From Catellatospora sichuanensis (GTDB lineage: Bacteria; Actinomycetota; Actinomycetes; Mycobacteriales; Micromonosporaceae): DNA of 64,000 nt. The stretch spans positions 62,001-126,000 of the forward strand of contig NZ_VIQO01000026.1 of NCBI RefSeq assembly GCF_007483665.1, in the 5' to 3' direction. The number at the start of each line of letters is the position of its first letter. Positions within the stretch are counted from its first letter, which is position 1. The notes under the pieces were generated by a model. The model ran no database searches and was not told where the DNA came from. It saw nothing but the letters and a program-made list of their open reading frames with translations. Below, piece by piece: positions 52,624-64,000 of the stretch. Made by a program: the position numbers and the translations under genes.

Positions 52624-52641
<18 letters not shown>
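52596..52641. terminator. Long palindromic terminator-like element
   Basis: GGAAGGGCACCTTCT (52596-52610) pairs with AGAAGGTGCCCTTCC (52627-52641) and inner TAACGC with GCGTTA, giving a 21-bp stem with one bulge. It serves the convergent membrane gene, and on the other strand the sigma-factor gene whose stop lies inside it. Confidence 0.75.
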
Positions 52642-53870
<1,229 letters not shown>

Positions 53871-53874
<4 letters not shown>

Positions 53875-54236
53875 AGGTCGTTGCCCGGTGCCTCGTGCAG
53901 CACCGGCCACAGCTCGACCGGGTCCTGGTCAGCCCACGGCATGTCTGCCGCGATCTCCTCCGCGCGCTGCTGGCTGGCGCAGTCGAGCAGGTAGAAGCTC
54001 GCGACGTACTCCTTGGTCTCCAGGTAGGGGCCGTCGGTCACCGCGGGCAGCCCGTCGGCGCGGCGCACCAGCTTCGCCGCGGCGGCGTCGGCCAGCCCGT
54101 ACGCGCCCAGCAGCTCGCCGGTCTCCTTGTACTTGACGTTCCAGGCATCCTGCTTGGCGATCTCCGCCGGGAAGATCTCCGGCGGGATCGAGGCCCACTT
54201 CTCCTGGTTGCCGTAGATCATCAGCAGGTACTTCAT
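53871..54236 (-). CDS. YCII (DGPF) family protein
   Basis: A 121-residue protein: MKYLLMIYGNQEKWASIPPE, ADGLPAVTDGPYLETKEYVA with the DGPF-type motif (TDGPYLE), ASFYLLDCASQQRAEEIAAD and VELWPVLHEAP. DGPF/YCII proteins are encoded next to ECF42 sigma factors; their role is unproven. Co-translated with the downstream sigma gene. Confidence 0.92.
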
Positions 54237-57246: not shown

Positions 57247-59007
57247 TCAGGCGCGCCAGTGGGCGCGCATCGTCTGCACGGCGGACGTGAACTTCGGCCG
57301 GTCCAGCACCGCGCCGCGGTGCGCACCGACAGCCACCGGCTCGTCGAAGAACCTGGCAGGCAGGCTCCCGGCGGGCACGCCGAGCCGGTCGTTGATCTCC
57401 TGCTGGGCACGCAGCCGGTCCCGGCCGAGGGCGAACACCTGCTCCGGGGTGATAGGACGGCCGGAGGTGGCCCGCACCAGTTCGCAGACGCGGTCGAGGG
57501 TGAGCGGGCGGGTGGGGGTGCTGGCGAACGGGCAGATCAGCAGCGCGTCCAGGCCGCTCCACAGGTCGGCCAGGCGCAGCGTGCGCGCGACGTCCAGGGT
57601 GGAGGCAGGCGCGGGCACGGACACCCCGATCCGCTCGGCCTCGTCGAAGCAGTGCGGCAGGCCGTACACCGGGTCGAAGTCGAGGTCGTGCTCGACAGCG
57701 TCGTAGCGCGGGCCGATCGGCGCGGCCGCGTACATCAGGCCCAGGCCGGGCTGGCTGCGCGGGTCGAACGGCGGCAGCTCGACGCCGCGGCTGGTCATGG
57801 CCAGCTCCGGCGCACCGATCCGGGCGGCCAGCGCGGCCGCGCCCTCCCCCAGCGGGTGCCCCGGACGGGCGGCCAGCTCGACCAGCTCGACCAGCAGTTC
57901 CGCGGCCCCGAACCCGGCTCCGGCGGGCAGCTCGGCGGCCGGCCAGGACGGCAAGCCCCGCTGGGCGGCCTCGAACACGCAGGCCAGGGTGCCGCCGAGG
58001 GACACCGGATCGAGGCCCAGATCCTGGCAGCGGGCATTGGCGGCGAGGATCGCGCCAAGGTCGCCGATGCCGAGGTTCGGGCCGAGCATCGCCACGGCCT
58101 CCTGGTGCAGGCCCGCGCCGGCATACCCCTTGACGCAGTCGTTGGGGCAGCCGGGGCAGCCGCCACCGGACCAGCTCAGGAACTCCGCGTAGCGGTCAGG
58201 GTGCAGGCCGGGCCAGGACGCGGGCGCGGTGGCGGTGTCGGCGAAGTTGCGCACCGCGGCCGCGCCGGGTTCGGTCGAGGTGCCCGGCCAGGCCCCGAAT
58301 CCCGGGGCCGCGAGCTGCCAGCCCGCCAGCGGGTGGTCCGGCATCTCCTTGCGGTACGCGGTGAACAGCGCCTGCGCCGCGAGCACATCGTGCGGCCACG
58401 GAGCGCGCCCCTCGGCACGGCCGTCGGACGGCACGCAGACCACGGCCTTGATCCGGCGGGCCCCGAGCACCGCCCCGAACCCGAGCCGGGGCAGCGGGAA
58501 CGACCGGCAGGTGACCACAGCGGCGTAGCGCACACCGGCCTCCCCCGCCGGCCCGATCACGGCGACGGCGGCACCACGCCCGTGCCGGGCCAGCAGCGTG
58601 TCGGTGGCCTGCCCGGTCTCCATCCCCCACAGCTCGCCCGCCGGGAGCACGGTGGCGCGTCCGGTCTCGACGACCACATACGACGGCTGATCCGCGGCCC
58701 CGGTCAGGCTGATGCCGGTGATGCCCGCCGCGCGCATGCCCGCCGCGTACGGGCCCTCGGCCCGGGTCTCGGCGACCGCACCGGACAGCGGCGAGACGCC
58801 TACGGCTGCGCAACGGGCCGTGCCGACCGCGCCCAACCCGGCGACGGTGCTGGTGACCAGCGCGACGGGCAGCCGAGGATCGGCCGGGTCGGCCGGGCCG
58901 TCCAGCGCCTTGCGCAACGTGGACAGTGCCTGCAGCGGCCCGCCCCAGCCGAGTTCGGGCTCGCGGTACTGGCCGCCGCTGCTCAGGTCGACATGCAGGT
59001 AAGTCAT
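57247..59007 (-). CDS. Aldehyde:ferredoxin oxidoreductase (AFOR) family protein
   Basis: A 586-residue AFOR-family protein. The N-terminal domain has TARCAAVGVSPLSGAVAETR and AAGITGISLTG. The iron-sulfur site cysteines are in GGCPGCPNDCVKG (about 284-291) and a fourth in ALLICPFAS (about 489), the CxxCxxxC...C spacing of AFORs. These enzymes hold a tungsten or molybdenum bis-pterin and oxidise aldehydes to acids with ferredoxin. The ATG overlaps the stop of the aldo-keto reductase gene. Family members are best known from anaerobes. In this locus an aldehyde such as L-lactaldehyde or a sugar is a reasonable substrate, but that is inference. Confidence 0.88.
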   Translation of the reverse strand: MTYLHVDLSSGGQYREPELGWGGPLQALSTLRKALDGPADPADPRLPVALVTSTVAGLGAVGTARCAAVGVSPLSGAVAETRAEGPYAAGMRAAGITGISLTGAADQPSYVVVETGRATVLPAGELWGMETGQATDTLLARHGRGAAVAVIGPAGEAGVRYAAVVTCRSFPLPRLGFGAVLGARRIKAVVCVPSDGRAEGRAPWPHDVLAAQALFTAYRKEMPDHPLAGWQLAAPGFGAWPGTSTEPGAAAVRNFADTATAPASWPGLHPDRYAEFLSWSGGGCPGCPNDCVKGYAGAGLHQEAVAMLGPNLGIGDLGAILAANARCQDLGLDPVSLGGTLACVFEAAQRGLPSWPAAELPAGAGFGAAELLVELVELAARPGHPLGEGAAALAARIGAPELAMTSRGVELPPFDPRSQPGLGLMYAAAPIGPRYDAVEHDLDFDPVYGLPHCFDEAERIGVSVPAPASTLDVARTLRLADLWSGLDALLICPFASTPTRPLTLDRVCELVRATSGRPITPEQVFALGRDRLRAQQEINDRLGVPAGSLPARFFDEPVAVGAHRGAVLDRPKFTSAVQTMRAHWRA

Positions 59008-59999
59008 GCCGGCAGCGGGGCGTCGGGGCGCAGCAGGCCCTCGTCGACCAGTTCGGCCCACAGCCGGGCGGGCGGCGACGGCAGGGCGAACCACTCGGCG
59101 CTGCGTTCGACGTGCCCGGGTCTGCCCGCGCCGACCACGATCGACGCGACGGCGGGGTGCGCGGCGGCGAACGCGAGCGCGGCCTGCGGCAGGGTCACGC
59201 CGTGGCGGCGGCAGGCGGTGGCGATGCCCTGCGCGCGGGCGAGGATCTCGGCGGGGGCGGTGCCGTACTCGTACGGCCGGGTCTCGTCGGGCCACTCGAC
59301 CGCCAGCAGGCCGCTGTTGAACACGCCGACGTTGAGCACCGAGATGCCGCGCTTGACGCACGCGGGCAGGATGTCGTCGAGTGCGGGCTGCTCCAGCAGC
59401 GTGTACCGCCCGGCGACCATCAGGGCGTCCACATCGGTCTCGGCGGCGAACCGGGCCAGGATCGCGGGATCCTTGGAGCCGACGCCGATCGCGCCGACGA
59501 CACCCTCGCGGCGCAGCCCGTCCAGCACCGGGTACGCCTCCCGCAGCGCCTGCTCCGGCTCCGGGCTCTCCTCCGGGTCGTGCATCAGCACGATGTCGAC
59601 GTGGTCGTGGCCGAGCCGGGCCAGGCTCTCCTCGATGCTGCGGCGCACCCCGGCGGCGCTGTAGTCCCACACCCGCCGCCGGGTCGCGGGCACCGCGAAG
59701 CCGTTGGCCATGTCGTCGCCCGCGCCGTCGGGGTCGTCGACGAGGATCCGGCCGACCTTCGTCGAGATCGCGTACTCGGCGCGCGGGTACCCGGCCAGGG
59801 CCCGGCCCAGCCGCTGCTCCGACAGGCCCAGCCCGTAGTGCGGGGCGGTGTCGAAGTAGCGGATGCCCGCCTGCCAGGCCGCGTCGACGGTGGCCGCGGC
59901 CTGCTCGTCCGGGACGGCCCGGTAGAGGTTGCCGATGGAGGCCGCGCCGAAGCCGAGCGCGCTGACCGCGACCATGGAGCTGCCGACCGGGTTGGTCAT
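59004..59999 (-). CDS. Aldo/keto reductase, likely L-fucose-type aldose 1-dehydrogenase
   Basis: A 331-residue AKR with the GFGAASIGNL start, GIRYFDTAPHYGLGLSEQRL (catalytic Asp and Tyr), KVGRI (catalytic Lys), LMHDPEESPEPEQAL (catalytic His) and SIVVGAGRPGHVER near the end. The family with this DxxPH-type pattern includes D-threo-aldose (L-fucose) 1-dehydrogenases, which oxidise L-fucose to L-fuconolactone. L-fuconate dehydratase, encoded 3 kb away, uses the hydrolysed product, which fits. Substrate not proven. Confidence 0.88.
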   Translation of the reverse strand: MTNPVGSSMVAVSALGFGAASIGNLYRAVPDEQAAATVDAAWQAGIRYFDTAPHYGLGLSEQRLGRALAGYPRAEYAISTKVGRILVDDPDGAGDDMANGFAVPATRRRVWDYSAAGVRRSIEESLARLGHDHVDIVLMHDPEESPEPEQALREAYPVLDGLRREGVVGAIGVGSKDPAILARFAAETDVDALMVAGRYTLLEQPALDDILPACVKRGISVLNVGVFNSGLLAVEWPDETRPYEYGTAPAEILARAQGIATACRRHGVTLPQAALAFAAAHPAVASIVVGAGRPGHVERSAEWFALPSPPARLWAELVDEGLLRPDAPLPA

Positions 60000-60020
60000 G
60001 GTGGATCGCCCTTCCGATGT

Positions 60021-60620
60021 TCAGGGATGTACGCAGACGATGTCGAGGCGGCGCGGCCCGTGCACGCCCTCGACCCGGTTGAGCTCGATGTCGCTGGTCG
60101 CCGACGGCCCGGAGATCATCGTCAGGGGACGCGTCGGATCGGCCAGCGCGGGGATCATGTCGGGCACGTCGGCGACGATCTGCTCGTCGCGCACCACGCA
60201 GACGTGGTGGTCCGGGACCAGCGTCAGCAACCGCCGGCCCTGCCCCGGCCCGGCGTCGAGCACGATCGTGCCGGTCTCCGCGATCGCCACCGCGCACCCG
60301 GTGAGCACCGACAGCCCGGCCTCGTCCAGCTCGGCCGGGGTCAGCAGGTGCACCAGGCCCGATCCCAGACCGTCATCGCCGACGGGCGCACCGGCCGCCG
60401 AACTCGTTCCGGTCCGGCCGACCGTGCCTGCGGGACCGTCCGCCAGCACCGGCACCGGCAGCGCAGTGGTCCACGCTGCGGGCACACCCGGTGGCAGCAC
60501 CACCTTGGACGCTCCGGCCAGCAGCCCGGCCAGCACCTCGGGCAGTTCGTCCTCGGTGCAGTGATGCATGCCGGCGCGGTAGTCGCCCGCCCGCTCGGCG
60601 AACAGTTCGGCAAGGCTCAT
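60021..60620 (-). CDS. lutC: L-lactate utilisation protein LutC
   Basis: A 199-residue LUD-domain protein. VVLPPGVPAAWTTALPVPVL, CAVAIAETGTIVLDAG and MISGPSATSDIELNRVEGVH carry the family signatures (AETGTI; GPSxTxDIE). LutC is the small subunit of the LutABC L-lactate oxidase. GGAGGAGC precedes ATG 60620; an in-frame ATG at 60665 would overlap lutB. Confidence 0.93.
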   Translation of the reverse strand: MSLAELFAERAGDYRAGMHHCTEDELPEVLAGLLAGASKVVLPPGVPAAWTTALPVPVLADGPAGTVGRTGTSSAAGAPVGDDGLGSGLVHLLTPAELDEAGLSVLTGCAVAIAETGTIVLDAGPGQGRRLLTLVPDHHVCVVRDEQIVADVPDMIPALADPTRPLTMISGPSATSDIELNRVEGVHGPRRLDIVCVHP

Positions 60621-60651
60621 GCCCGCTCCTCCGGCGGCACGGCCGGGCTGG

Positions 60652-62085
60652 TCAGGACTGCTCATGGGTACGCCTCCACCAGTCGCGGAAGGACTCGGCC
60701 GCGGGCAGCGGCGCGTCGCGGTGCGCGGTCCACGCCGACAGCGGCCACGGCGCGCGCCGCAGCGTGCCGCCGTGGCGGCGGGCGATCAGGCGCAGCGGGG
60801 CGCTGCCCGAGCGGGCTGCCCGCAGCGCGGCGCGCCACCGCCGCCGGTCGCGCATCACCCAGCTCAGCGTCGACATCGCGGCCCGCTCGGCGACCGGCTT
60901 CGGGCCGGTCTGGCGCAGGTGCACCAGGATCTCCGGAATATTGATCTTCACCGGGCAGACGTCGTAACACGCACCGCACAGCGTCGAGGCGTACGGCAGG
61001 GTCTTGTTGAAGCCCGCGTCCTGCCCGGTGAGCTGCGGCGACAGGATCGCGCCGATCGGTCCGGGGTAGACCGAGCCGTACGCGTGCCCGCCCGCGCGCT
61101 CGTACACCGGGCAAACGTTCAGGCAGGCCGAACAGCGGATGCAGCGCAGCGCCGCCCGGCCGACCGGATCCTGCGCGACCTGCGTACGGCCGTTGTCCAG
61201 CAGCACGATGTGCAGCCGCTGCGGCCCGTCGCCGGGCGTCACCCCGGTGAAGATCGAGGTGTACGGGTTCATCCGCTCGCCGGTCGACGAGCGCGGCAGC
61301 AGCCGCAGGAAGTCGCCGAGGTCGGCGAAGCGCGGCAGCAGCTTCTCCACGCCGACCACCGCGATCAGCGTCTCCGGCAGGGTCAGGCACATCCGCCCGT
61401 TGCCCTCCGACTCGACGATGACCAGCGACCCGGTCTCCGCGATCGCGAAGTTGGCCCCGCACACCGCGACCTTCGCCGCCAGGAACGTCCGCCGCAGATA
61501 CTCCCGCGCCGCACCCGCCAGCACCGCCGGCTCGTCCGACGTCGCGGTGAACCCCGGCATCCGCCGCGCGAACAGCTCACGGATCTGGCTGCGGTTGTAA
61601 TGGATCGCCGGGACCAGGATGTGCGAGGGGGTGTCGTCGGCGAGCTGCACGATGAGCTCGGCGAGGTCCGTCTCGATCGGCGTGATGCCCGCCGCTTCGA
61701 GAGCCTCGTTGAGCCCGATCTCCTGCGTCGCCATCGACTTGATCTTCACAACGCTCTCGGCCCGCTGCCCCTGCACCAGCCCGGTCACGATCGCGTTGGC
61801 GTGGGCCGCGTCCTGCGCGTGATGCACCACCGCCCCGGCCGCCACCGCCGCCGCCTCGAACCGCGCCAGCAGCTCGGCCAGATTGTCCAGCACCTCGTCC
61901 TTGACCGCAGCGGCCCGATCCCGCATCGGCTCCCAGTCGGCGACCTCGGCCACCACCCGAGCCCGCTTGTCACGAATGGTCCGCGTGGCCCGGCCCAGAT
62001 TCGCCCGCAACTGCCCGTCGGCGAGCTCCCGCTCCGCCGCCACCGCAAACGGCATGACCGCCACGATCGGCAACTCCCTGCTCAC
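60652..62085 (-). CDS. lutB: L-lactate utilisation iron-sulfur protein LutB
   Basis: A 477-residue protein with an N-terminal LUD domain (FAIAETGSLVIVESEGNGRM; ETDLAELIVQLA) and a C-terminal ferredoxin-like domain with CIRCSACLNVCPVYERAGGH and CGACYDVCPVKINIPE, two 4Fe-4S motifs. LutB transfers electrons from L-lactate oxidation. GTG 62085 or 62088. A palindromic element (62109-62181) separates it from lutA. Confidence 0.94.
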   Translation of the reverse strand: MSRELPIVAVMPFAVAAERELADGQLRANLGRATRTIRDKRARVVAEVADWEPMRDRAAAVKDEVLDNLAELLARFEAAAVAAGAVVHHAQDAAHANAIVTGLVQGQRAESVVKIKSMATQEIGLNEALEAAGITPIETDLAELIVQLADDTPSHILVPAIHYNRSQIRELFARRMPGFTATSDEPAVLAGAAREYLRRTFLAAKVAVCGANFAIAETGSLVIVESEGNGRMCLTLPETLIAVVGVEKLLPRFADLGDFLRLLPRSSTGERMNPYTSIFTGVTPGDGPQRLHIVLLDNGRTQVAQDPVGRAALRCIRCSACLNVCPVYERAGGHAYGSVYPGPIGAILSPQLTGQDAGFNKTLPYASTLCGACYDVCPVKINIPEILVHLRQTGPKPVAERAAMSTLSWVMRDRRRWRAALRAARSGSAPLRLIARRHGGTLRRAPWPLSAWTAHRDAPLPAAESFRDWWRRTHEQS

Positions 62086-62108
62086 CACAGACCCCCCGCC
62101 ATGATCGC

Positions 62109-62181
62109 GACGATCTTGCGCGAACTGTTGCCTATTTGTCCGGTCGGCGCGTGTCGCACCCACGGTTCGCGCAAGATCGTC
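62109..62181. repeat. Palindromic element between lutA and lutB
   Basis: GACGATCTTGCGCGAAC (62109-62125) and its perfect complement (62165-62181) enclose a 39-base core with TATTTGTCCGGTCGGCG. It is a different sequence class from the 75-bp element. Being intra-operonic, it could affect transcript stability. Confidence 0.6.
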
Positions 62182-62203
62182 GGGGTGGTGGGTGGGAGCG
62201 TCG

Positions 62204-62884
62204 TCATGAGAGGGCTCCGGTGGCGGCGAGGATTTCGGCGTAGTGGATCGGTTTGGGGGCGCGGGGGTGGCGGGCGAGGCCGCCGCCGATGTGGGCCAGG
62301 CAGGAGTTGTCGGCGGCGGCGAGGTATTCGGCGCCGGTGGACTCCGCGTTGGCGATTTTGTCGGCGAGCATGGCGCCGGAGACGGCGGCGTTCTTGAGGG
62401 CGAAGGTGCCGCCGAAGCCGCAGCACTGTTCGGGTTCGGGTAGGTCGATCAGGTCCAGGCCCTTGACTGCGCGCAGCAGGGTCGCGGGGCGGTCGCCCAG
62501 GCGCAGTGCTCTCAGGCCGTGGCAGGTGGGGTGGTAGGTGACGCGGTGCGGGAAGGTCGCGCCCACGTCGGTCACGCCGAGCACGTCCACGAGCAGTTCG
62601 GACAGCTCGTAGGCGGGTAGGGCGGTGTGCGCGCGCAGGTGTGCGACGCAGGAGCCCGACGGCGAGACGATGACGTCGTGGCCGGCGAACGCGGCCTCGG
62701 TGAGGCGTTCGAGCTGCCGGGCGGGCGCGGCGTAGCCGGTGTTGGCGTGCATCTGACCACAGCAGGACTGCGCGGCCGGGAACGCGACCGTGTGGCCGAG
62801 CCGTTCCAGCAGCGCCACCGTCGCAATCCCGGCCTGCGGGAACAGCGCGTCGTTAAGGCATGTGACGAACAGTGCGATCCGCAC
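62204..62884 (-). CDS. lutA: L-lactate utilisation protein LutA
   Basis: A 226-residue protein with two CCG domains: FPAAQSCCGQMHANTGYAAP and CHGLRALRLGDRP...QCCGFGGTFALKNAAVSGAM. The fit to the LutA/GlpC CCG family is full length. Cysteine-rich domains bind Fe-S or heterodisulfide-like clusters; LutA acts with LutB and LutC in L-lactate oxidation. GTG 62884 has AGGAGG eight bases upstream. First gene of the five-gene minus-strand operon, divergent from L-fuconate dehydratase. Confidence 0.93.
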   Translation of the reverse strand: MRIALFVTCLNDALFPQAGIATVALLERLGHTVAFPAAQSCCGQMHANTGYAAPARQLERLTEAAFAGHDVIVSPSGSCVAHLRAHTALPAYELSELLVDVLGVTDVGATFPHRVTYHPTCHGLRALRLGDRPATLLRAVKGLDLIDLPEPEQCCGFGGTFALKNAAVSGAMLADKIANAESTGAEYLAAADNSCLAHIGGGLARHPRAPKPIHYAEILAATGALS

Positions 62885-62902
62885 GGGGCGGGTCCTCCTC
62901 CC

Positions 62903-62942
62903 TTGACGGTGTCTTGCTCTTAAGGCTAGATCCTATAGGATC
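62903..62942 (+). promoter_or_regulatory. Promoter and 14-bp palindromic operator of the fuconate dehydratase gene
   Basis: TTGACG (62903-62908), an 18-base gap and TAGATC (62927-62932) form a promoter overlapped by GATCCTATAGGATC (62929-62942), a perfect palindrome. Such sites fit a GntR/FadR-type repressor. It sits in the divergent gap with lutA and may control both sides. Confidence 0.55.
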
Positions 62943-62970
62943 CAGGATGTAGCCGGAAGGAGCCAACCAC

Positions 62971-63012
62971 ATGCCGACCCACCACTCCCCACTCCGGGGC
63001 GCGGCGCGATGA
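62971..63012 (+). CDS. 13-residue leader peptide ahead of L-fuconate dehydratase
   Basis: ATG at 62971 with GGAAGGAG about eight bases upstream opens a mini-[16 protein letters not shown], whose TGA overlaps the L-fuconate dehydratase ATG (ATGA at 63009-63012). The dehydratase ATG itself has no clear ribosome site. This would make it translated by coupling to the leader. Confidence 0.35.
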
Positions 63013-64000
63013 AGGTCATTGATCTGCGCGTGCGCGACATCCGCTTCCCCACCTCCCGCCACCTCGACGGCTCCGACGCGATGAACCCGGACCCCGACTA
63101 TTCGGCCGCGTACGTCGAGCTCATCACCGATGGCGACGCCGTCGGACACGGCTTCACCTTCACCATCGGACGGGGCAACGACATCTGCGCCGCGGCGATC
63201 GAAGCGCTTCGACCGTACGTGGTGGGCCAGGATCTGGACACCCTCGACCTCGGCGAGTTCGGCCGCCGGCTCACCCACGACTCGCAACTGCGCTGGCTCG
63301 GCCCGGAGAAGGGCGTCATGCACCTGGCCGCCGGCGCCGTCGTCAACGCCGCCTGGGACCTGGCCTCCCGCCGGGCCGGGCTGCCACTGTGGCGCTACCT
63401 GACCGACCTGTCCCCCGACGCCGTCGTGGACTGCGTGGACTGGCGCTACCTCACCGACGCGCTGACCCCCGAAGCCGCCCGCGACCTGCTCACCGAGCGG
63501 GCACCGGGCCGGGCTGCGCGGGCCGAGCAGATCAGCGCCGACGGCTTTCCGGCGTACACCACCTCGGCGGGCTGGCTCGGTTACGACGACGCGAAGGTGA
63601 CCCGGCGCGCGCTGCGCGCGGTGGCCGACGGGTTCGCCATGGTGAAACTGAAGGTCGGCGCGGACCTGCACGACGACCTGCGCCGGTTCACCGCCGCCCG
63701 CGAGGCGCTGGGACCGGACTTCCCGATCGGCATCGACGCCAACCAGCGGTGGGGCGTCGGCGAGGCGATCGGCTGGGTGAGCGCCCTGGGCCACCTGAAC
63801 CCGTACTGGATCGAGGAGCCGACCAGCCCCGACGAGATCCTCGGCCACGCCGCGATCCGCACCGGGCTGGCCCAGGCCGGCCCCGGCGGCACGCCGATCC
63901 GGGTGGCCACCGGCGAGCACGTGCACAACCGCATCATGTTCAAGCAGCTGCTGCAGGCCGACGCGGTGGACGTGGTGCAGATCGACTCCGCCCGGGTCGC
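63009..64000 (+). CDS. L-fuconate dehydratase, 3' truncated by window edge
   Basis: The frame is open from the ATG at 63009 to the window end (330 codons). Enolase-superfamily fuconate dehydratase motifs: [44 protein letters not shown] (catalytic Lys), IGIDANQRW (metal Asp and Asn), [18 protein letters not shown] (metal Glu), [20 protein letters not shown] (metal Glu). It converts L-fuconate to 2-keto-3-deoxy-L-fuconate. It is divergent from lutA and probably begins an operon that continues outside the window. Confidence 0.95.

Follow-up and report, generated by a model that had tools for sequence, protein, structure and literature searches.

This analysis concerns a gene cluster at the right end of a stretch of Catellatospora sichuanensis DNA (64,000 nucleotides, positions 62,001 to 126,000 of contig NZ_VIQO01000026.1 in assembly GCF_007483665.1; the whole stretch is called the window below), taken from a genome of 9.45 Mb. 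Genes for a predicted pathway of L-fucose degradation stand there together with lutABC and a gene for a protein of the aldehyde:ferredoxin oxidoreductase (AFOR) family, which in our opinion very probably belongs to the same regulon. The protein is a member of a group of AFORs, here called the EHD clade, in which the motif GPxYxxxEHDxDFD replaces the usual RGxxH. Our best explanation of the locus as a whole, an L-fucose regulon whose AFOR acts on the sugar, is a preference that we would not quite call probable.

The genes named in the preliminary description of the window (AFOR, aldo/keto reductase, lutABC and fuconate dehydratase) are where it placed them, as domains and coordinates confirm. 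A reverse-strand operon ends with the AFOR gene (57247..59007, 586 aa), whose product matches both AFOR_N and AFOR_C of Pfam (166 and 135 bits) and carries the cluster cysteines, the EHD motif and the predicted fold of the family. The gene before it (59004..59999, reverse strand) encodes an aldo/keto reductase (AKR; Pfam Aldo_ket_red), putatively of the L-galactose/L-fucose 1-dehydrogenase type; its closest solved relatives are L-galactose dehydrogenases (133 bits). The AKR stop and the AFOR start overlap as ATGA, in agreement with the translational coupling proposed earlier. Upstream on the same strand lie a lutC-like gene for a LUD-domain protein (60021..60665; LUD_dom, 81 bits), a lutB-like gene for an iron-sulphur protein (60652..62163; its start is possibly inside the listed reading frame) and a lutA-like gene for a CCG-domain protein (62204..62884; CCG, 116 bits). 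The LutB protein has the complete domain set (LUD_dom, Fer4_8, LutB_C) and scores 424.4 bits with TIGR00273, narrowly below the curated cut-off of 444.8. On the forward strand, fucD starts at 63009 and runs past the window's end at 64000 to the equivalent of position 64319; its 436-aa product, an L-fuconate dehydratase of the enolase superfamily, matches the solved enzyme 2HNE over residues 3-435 with 596 bits. lutA and fucD are divergent and separated by a spacer of 124 bp, which fits the divergent promoter region around which these genes had been described.

The preliminary description proposed one coherent route from L-fucose to pyruvate and L-lactate, with the L-lactate then oxidised to pyruvate, and pointed to the DNA right of position 64000 for the remaining enzymes. 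Indeed, the next genes there (read over 12 kb) supply a 2-keto-3-deoxy-L-fuconate (KDF) dehydrogenase and a putative hydrolase, and in addition a putative lactonase and a regulator: an SDR gene overlaps fucD, convergent to it lie the genes of the hydrolase (FAH type) and of the lactonase (an amidohydrolase), and a GntR/FCD regulator gene is divergent. In an alignment with 8XWK, a solved L-KDF dehydrogenase, the SDR has the equivalents of Arg148, Arg192 and Arg214, with Met in place of Trp252 (residues counted by hand); PMC11199699 describes this arginine triad as the most characteristic motif. The nearest solved relative of the hydrolase is L-2,4-diketo-3-deoxyrhamnonate hydrolase 8GSR (232 bits), and its top model is NF053535 at 280 bits, under the cut-off of 500. 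For the lactonase, the nearest solved structure is 4DLF (131 bits), and the sole NCBIfam match is NF052480, L-fucono-1,5-lactonase, at 196 bits under a cut-off of 400. The dehydrogenase, lactonase, dehydratase, KDF dehydrogenase and hydrolase predicted here correspond in type to the enzymes of the non-phosphorylating L-fucose route 3 (FucA-FucB-FucC-FucF-FucG), which yields L-lactate and pyruvate (PMC11199699). We are highly confident of the L-fucose route as predicted here. A long near-perfect inverted repeat that resembles a two-way terminator was seen by eye between the convergent SDR and hydrolase genes (L006:9137-9200).

Unlike route 3, the Catellatospora cluster is coupled to lutABC and an AFOR gene, and neither a mutarotase nor an importer was recognised in it. 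The fucose importer anticipated right of position 64000 was not found when the gene lists of the window and the flanking DNA were inspected by eye. Some 10 kb further to the right there is a gene of MFS type, and the fucose clusters of several relatives contain ABC importer genes. Fucose clusters of relatives (L118:441-6139, L040:280-5593, L116) start with genes that encode a sugar-binding protein, an MR/MLE enzyme of 361 aa and ABC proteins.

The lutABC genes have the same three-gene order and domain set as LutABC/LldEFG; the cluster differs from those systems in its LutB, which stays just below the TIGR00273 cut-off, in its position at a candidate operator of the fucose regulon, and in the presence of a second lutABC in the genome. 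This second copy lies outside the fucose cluster (L008:7570-10405), and its products are 62% (LutA), 63% (LutB) and 45% (LUD protein) identical to those in the cluster. The existence of a separate copy suggests that the one in the cluster is dedicated to the L-fucose route.

The membership of the protein in the AFOR family is clear from both domains, the fold and the CxxCxxxC motif with a distal cysteine (C284, C287, C291 and C492). The predicted model has a mean pLDDT of 80.7, with low values at 283-286 and 433-438, and nine chains of the AFOR family, among them 9MQX and 1AOR, match it with E <= 1.4e-22; the TM scores against 1AOR and 9MQX are 0.78 and 0.83 by query length, at 24-26% identity. 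With these tungsten enzymes it shares the fold, both Pfam domains, the four cluster cysteines and an aligned active-site glutamate, and it differs from them in the clade motif, in its link to sugar operons of actinomycetes and in that inspection by eye showed neither a MoaD nor a ferredoxin partner gene. To define the difference, 32 clade rows, picked by the EHD motif and without the deleted homologue of genome G020, were compared with 42 other AFORs, the histidine motif being scored by aligned columns, clade rows included. RGxxH is present in none of the 32 clade rows; of the 42 other AFORs, 35 have RG..H and a further 4 have GG[ST]H. Each of the 32 clade rows retains all four cluster cysteines in alignment; thus the cysteines, whose loss in an alignment had been a concern, are intact, and only the 33rd full-length row, G020, lost two. 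The histidine of RGxxH is the active-site His448 of the Pyrococcus enzyme; the position aligned with the active-site residue Glu313 is a glutamate in 30 of 32 clade rows.

In the trees the clade forms one side of a branch, with SH-aLRT 95 for 32 rows and with support of 100/99 and 100% of 200 bootstrap trees for 25 rows, although both runs flag a meeting of long branches between the rows of family f26 and the rest, so that this grouping is possibly false. Not included in the 74-row tree were L045, because of its deletion, L046 and L124, which are remnants, L152, a fragment at a contig edge, duplicate loci and L038, which apparently is the same contig as L118; the 58-row tree is the same set minus 16 long branches and near copies. 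Alignments A1 and A2 hold 19 and 18 clade proteins, without the near copies L031 and L034 and without rows that have large inserts or deletions (L038, L042-L045, L116-L119, L123). Two neighbouring AFOR-like genes of genome G1113 (L139, L149) lack CxxCxxxC and sit on a very long branch.

A search of 354 Micromonosporaceae genomes (E <= 1e-20) gave AFOR matches in 24; in one of them, Catellatospora G008, a remnant of the C-terminal part is what occupies the usual place of the gene. In 22 of the 23 others the AFOR gene belongs to a fucD cluster whose gene order varies: after AKR, in the order lutABC-AKR-AFOR, in Catellatospora (8); between fucD and SDR in genera g11 (3) and g4 (3); likewise in g13 (4), there with a divergent gntR-lutABC; and, in g29 (4), in two clusters with FAH and SDR and two with neither in the stretch read. 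The 23rd, from Rhizocola, is in a lutABC-AFOR operon with an alpha-L-fucosidase gene about 6 kb away. lutABC-AKR stands beside divergent fucD-SDR in all 11 Catellatospora genomes read, 8 of them with a full AFOR gene, and since this layout is kept in every one the arrangement is not due to chance. That AFOR is a stray gene is rejected, because eight Catellatospora genomes have it at the same place and four more genera have it in fucD clusters. A general need of AFOR for a LutB partner was also considered and is rejected, as lut genes were not found in those parts of the g11, g29 and g4 clusters that were read.

A candidate operator adds to this picture. The palindrome CTAGATCCTATAGGATCCAG (62926..62945, an inverted repeat without strand), with the core GATCCTATAGGATC at 62929-62942, lies in the spacer between lutA and fucD. 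The core is the single site at two or fewer mismatches within the window, and it occurs exactly in the lutA-fucD spacer of 11 of 11 Catellatospora genomes; all gntR-lactonase spacers extracted have TATAGGATCTA. Rhizocola has a one-mismatch copy directly upstream of lutA in lutABC-AFOR, at a place without fucD, and copies with 0-1 mismatch adjoin gntR in two other genera (L038, L042-L044, L116, L118, L123). A match with 3 mismatches is all that L041 offers, and the one in L120, also with 3, is at chance level in 20 kb by a rough estimate. None at three or fewer mismatches was found in L040, L045, L117, L119, L121, L122, L126, L151 and L152. GntR may bind this candidate site.

From gene content and order, conservation, the cysteines, the motif change and the operator candidate, which are properties of the sequences as they stand, we infer a scheme of activities, regulation, metal and electron acceptor and, with the greatest reserve, the AFOR substrate. 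In a GntR-controlled L-fucose regulon, the AKR would oxidise L-fucose at C1, the lactonase would open the lactone, FucD would dehydrate L-fuconate, the SDR would oxidise KDF at C4, and the FAH-type hydrolase would yield pyruvate and L-lactate, the latter being converted to pyruvate by LutABC. The AFOR would be an accessory redox enzyme of the same regulon, performing a second oxidation at C1, with L-fucose or a close sugar as substrate; by way of a pyranopterin-metal centre and a 4Fe-4S cluster it would pass electrons to some one-electron carrier, beside the NAD(P)-linked AKR. That the AFOR acts on the sugar itself is proposed tentatively and with some doubt.

Outside Micromonosporaceae, our survey covered the genomes of one phylum, and beyond it matches in a plasmid collection. 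At class level the profile matched 16 of 394 genomes, and besides the source genome the EHD motif is present in G1061, G906 and G1133. In the small genome G1133 (1.3 Mb, 43% GC) the lactonase and AFOR genes overlap and are divergent from fucD, with ABC sugar importer genes present and no AKR found in the 16-kb locus. In G1061 and G906 the AFOR gene is in one stretch with genes for an SDR and a lactonase-like protein; the fucD clusters of these two genomes lie elsewhere. The low-GC family f26 has 14 genomes with an AFOR match, of which the best 6 were read; in all six loci AFOR follows an ABC importer ATPase gene at 1.5-3 kb from an L-fucose isomerase gene (one isomerase was scored by model, 1062 bits against 775, the others by similarity), and none of the six genomes gave a fucD match. 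The fucD and the isomerase settings share the sugar, not fuconate, KDF or the hydrolase products, which favours oxidation of the sugar by AFOR. As a control, eight canonical AFOR loci were read with flanks (L047, L048, L127-L130, L153, L154; in L129 one flank is missing); they gave no match to FucD, AKR, lactonase, FAH or Lut, and two of them have a distant SDR (33-35%). Genes of the MtaA/uroporphyrinogen-decarboxylase-like methyltransferase type lie between AFOR and the isomerase in the f26 loci L098-L103 (for instance L103:7318-9735).

Several observations weigh against our preferred explanation. With the canonical active-site histidine motif gone, the aldehyde chemistry of AFORs is not assured in this clade. 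An AKR gene is present in 21 of the 22 Micromonosporaceae fucD-AFOR clusters, the 22nd (L122) being cut by a contig end on the AKR side, so that AFOR is no substitute for AKR; its role as an AKR replacement is rejected for these clusters. Three Catellatospora genomes have lost AFOR (a trace in G007, the remnant in G008, nothing in G009) and kept the route, hence AFOR is linked but dispensable. The f26 loci, lacking fucD, show no visible fate for fuconate. The clade is rare in family f111 (2 of 121 genomes, G1133 and G1169), and in G1169 its surroundings are a sugar-acid cluster of another kind, which comprises genes for a Zn-alcohol dehydrogenase, SDRs, a FAD protein of the sugar-lactone-oxidase type and two proteins of MR/MLE type, and no close fucD in the stretch read. 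Nonomuraea gerenzanensis (L126) has a clade AFOR with none of the other fucose queries. No ferredoxin gene was seen to recur beside clade AFOR genes. Finally, the molybdopterin gene moaA was not found in 4 of the 19 carriers tested, namely three f26 genomes (98, 98 and 87% complete) and one that is 94% complete, and in f111 one of the two carriers has it, as do 5 of the 15 genomes without the clade gene. The MR/MLE enzyme close to AFOR in G1169 resembles the 361-aa one of the relatives' fucose clusters.

The tungsten/molybdenum cofactor genes asked for in the preliminary description are represented in the source genome by moaA, which is present in 15 of the 19 carriers (10/10, 5/8 and a negative in G1169). 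It is also present in G007-G009, without full AFOR (3/3), and the f111 counts, with moaA in non-carriers and missing in a carrier, mean that it does not track the AFOR gene. As a co-occurrence test, moaA is uninformative. Dependence of the AFOR on the cofactor is likely.

An earlier suggestion was that AFOR oxidises L-lactaldehyde, which would give L-lactate with ferredoxin. Aldehyde oxidation is the known reaction of the family (PMC10816221), and the f26 AFOR genes lie near an L-fucose isomerase, whose phosphorylating pathway yields L-lactaldehyde according to PMC11199699. However, the hydrolase route described in the same paper gives L-lactate directly and makes no lactaldehyde, which favours the sugar as AFOR substrate and does not support the suggestion; the gene lists of Micromonosporaceae clusters that were read by eye contained neither an aldolase nor an aldehyde dehydrogenase. 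None of the 32 clade rows has the canonical histidine motif, and in L102, one of the f26 loci, the isomerase gene is followed by a gene resembling, by eye, that of an aldehyde dehydrogenase, which could do the step. We regard this function as unlikely. Equally unlikely, in our opinion, is oxidation of the hydroxyl of a hydroxy acid (L-lactate, L-fuconate or L-KDF), in the manner of the Proteus (2R)-hydroxycarboxylate viologen oxidoreductase, presumably an AFOR-family member. The altered active-site motif would suit this reaction, as would the AFOR gene directly following lutABC in Rhizocola and standing between fucD and SDR in four genera, and the Proteus enzyme contains molybdenum and is an iron-sulphur protein (a work cited in PMC10816221). 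On the other side, many of the same clusters already have LutABC and the KDF dehydrogenase for these steps, and the Proteus enzyme is specific for (2R) substrates, L-lactate being (S).

The whole cluster, AFOR included, might instead serve a neighbouring sugar such as L-galactose or D-arabinose. The AKR is closest to L-galactose dehydrogenases, enzymes of that type have overlapping substrates, and in G1169 and at the f103 loci the clade gene stands with sugar-type genes of other kinds; on the contrary, FucD, the arginine triad of the KDF dehydrogenase, the best family of the lactonase, the isomerase neighbours and the alpha-L-fucosidase near the Rhizocola operon point to L-fucose, and we consider a different sugar quite improbable. 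Least probable of all is that AFOR is a decaying or non-catalytic passenger. Besides the losses in G007-G009, there are loop deletions and inserts in several genera, and in G020 (g11; L045:9371-10843) an in-frame deletion takes two cluster cysteines out of the four, although the operon otherwise looks intact. Yet dN/dS of AFOR is 0.18-0.40 in seven Catellatospora comparisons (FucD 0.13-0.22, AKR 0.27-0.58), four cysteines are kept in 32 of 33 full-length rows, and AFOR is kept in two genomes of 1.3 Mb.

To our knowledge, many AFOR members have no known substrate. The host actinomycetes are thought to be aerobic. AFORs have been characterised from few microbes, anaerobic or facultatively aerobic (PMC10816221). 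No paper linking AFOR to L-fucose in actinomycetes was found in the open-licence literature. The L-fucose route itself is already known, and we do not claim the pairing of fucose genes with lutABC as new; what is new is the clade with its altered motif and its link to sugars. It is possible, though rather doubtful, that the EHD clade constitutes a new class of oxidoreductases with a pyranopterin-metal centre (W or Mo), specialised for L-fucose and sugars like it in aerobically living actinomycetes, with a catalytic motif absent from the canonical AFORs compared, and that the class is shared with low-GC relatives that use L-fucose isomerase. A clade tied by its neighbourhood to one sugar in unrelated genomes offers a short list of substrates for an AFOR, and, if it is a working metal enzyme, an enzyme of a typically oxygen-sensitive type would be placed in actinomycetes thought to be aerobic. 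The coupling of fucose and Lut genes, for its part, would let the cell use the lactate half of the sugar too.

Two observations concern other genes. A second FucD-like enzyme of the source genome (54%; L009:6159-10208) adjoins a UxaC-type isomerase and a Gfo/Idh oxidoreductase and probably belongs to another sugar-acid route. At 52624-54236 of the window, an ECF-type sigma factor gene adjoins a gene for a small YCII/DGPF-like protein, as seen by eye.

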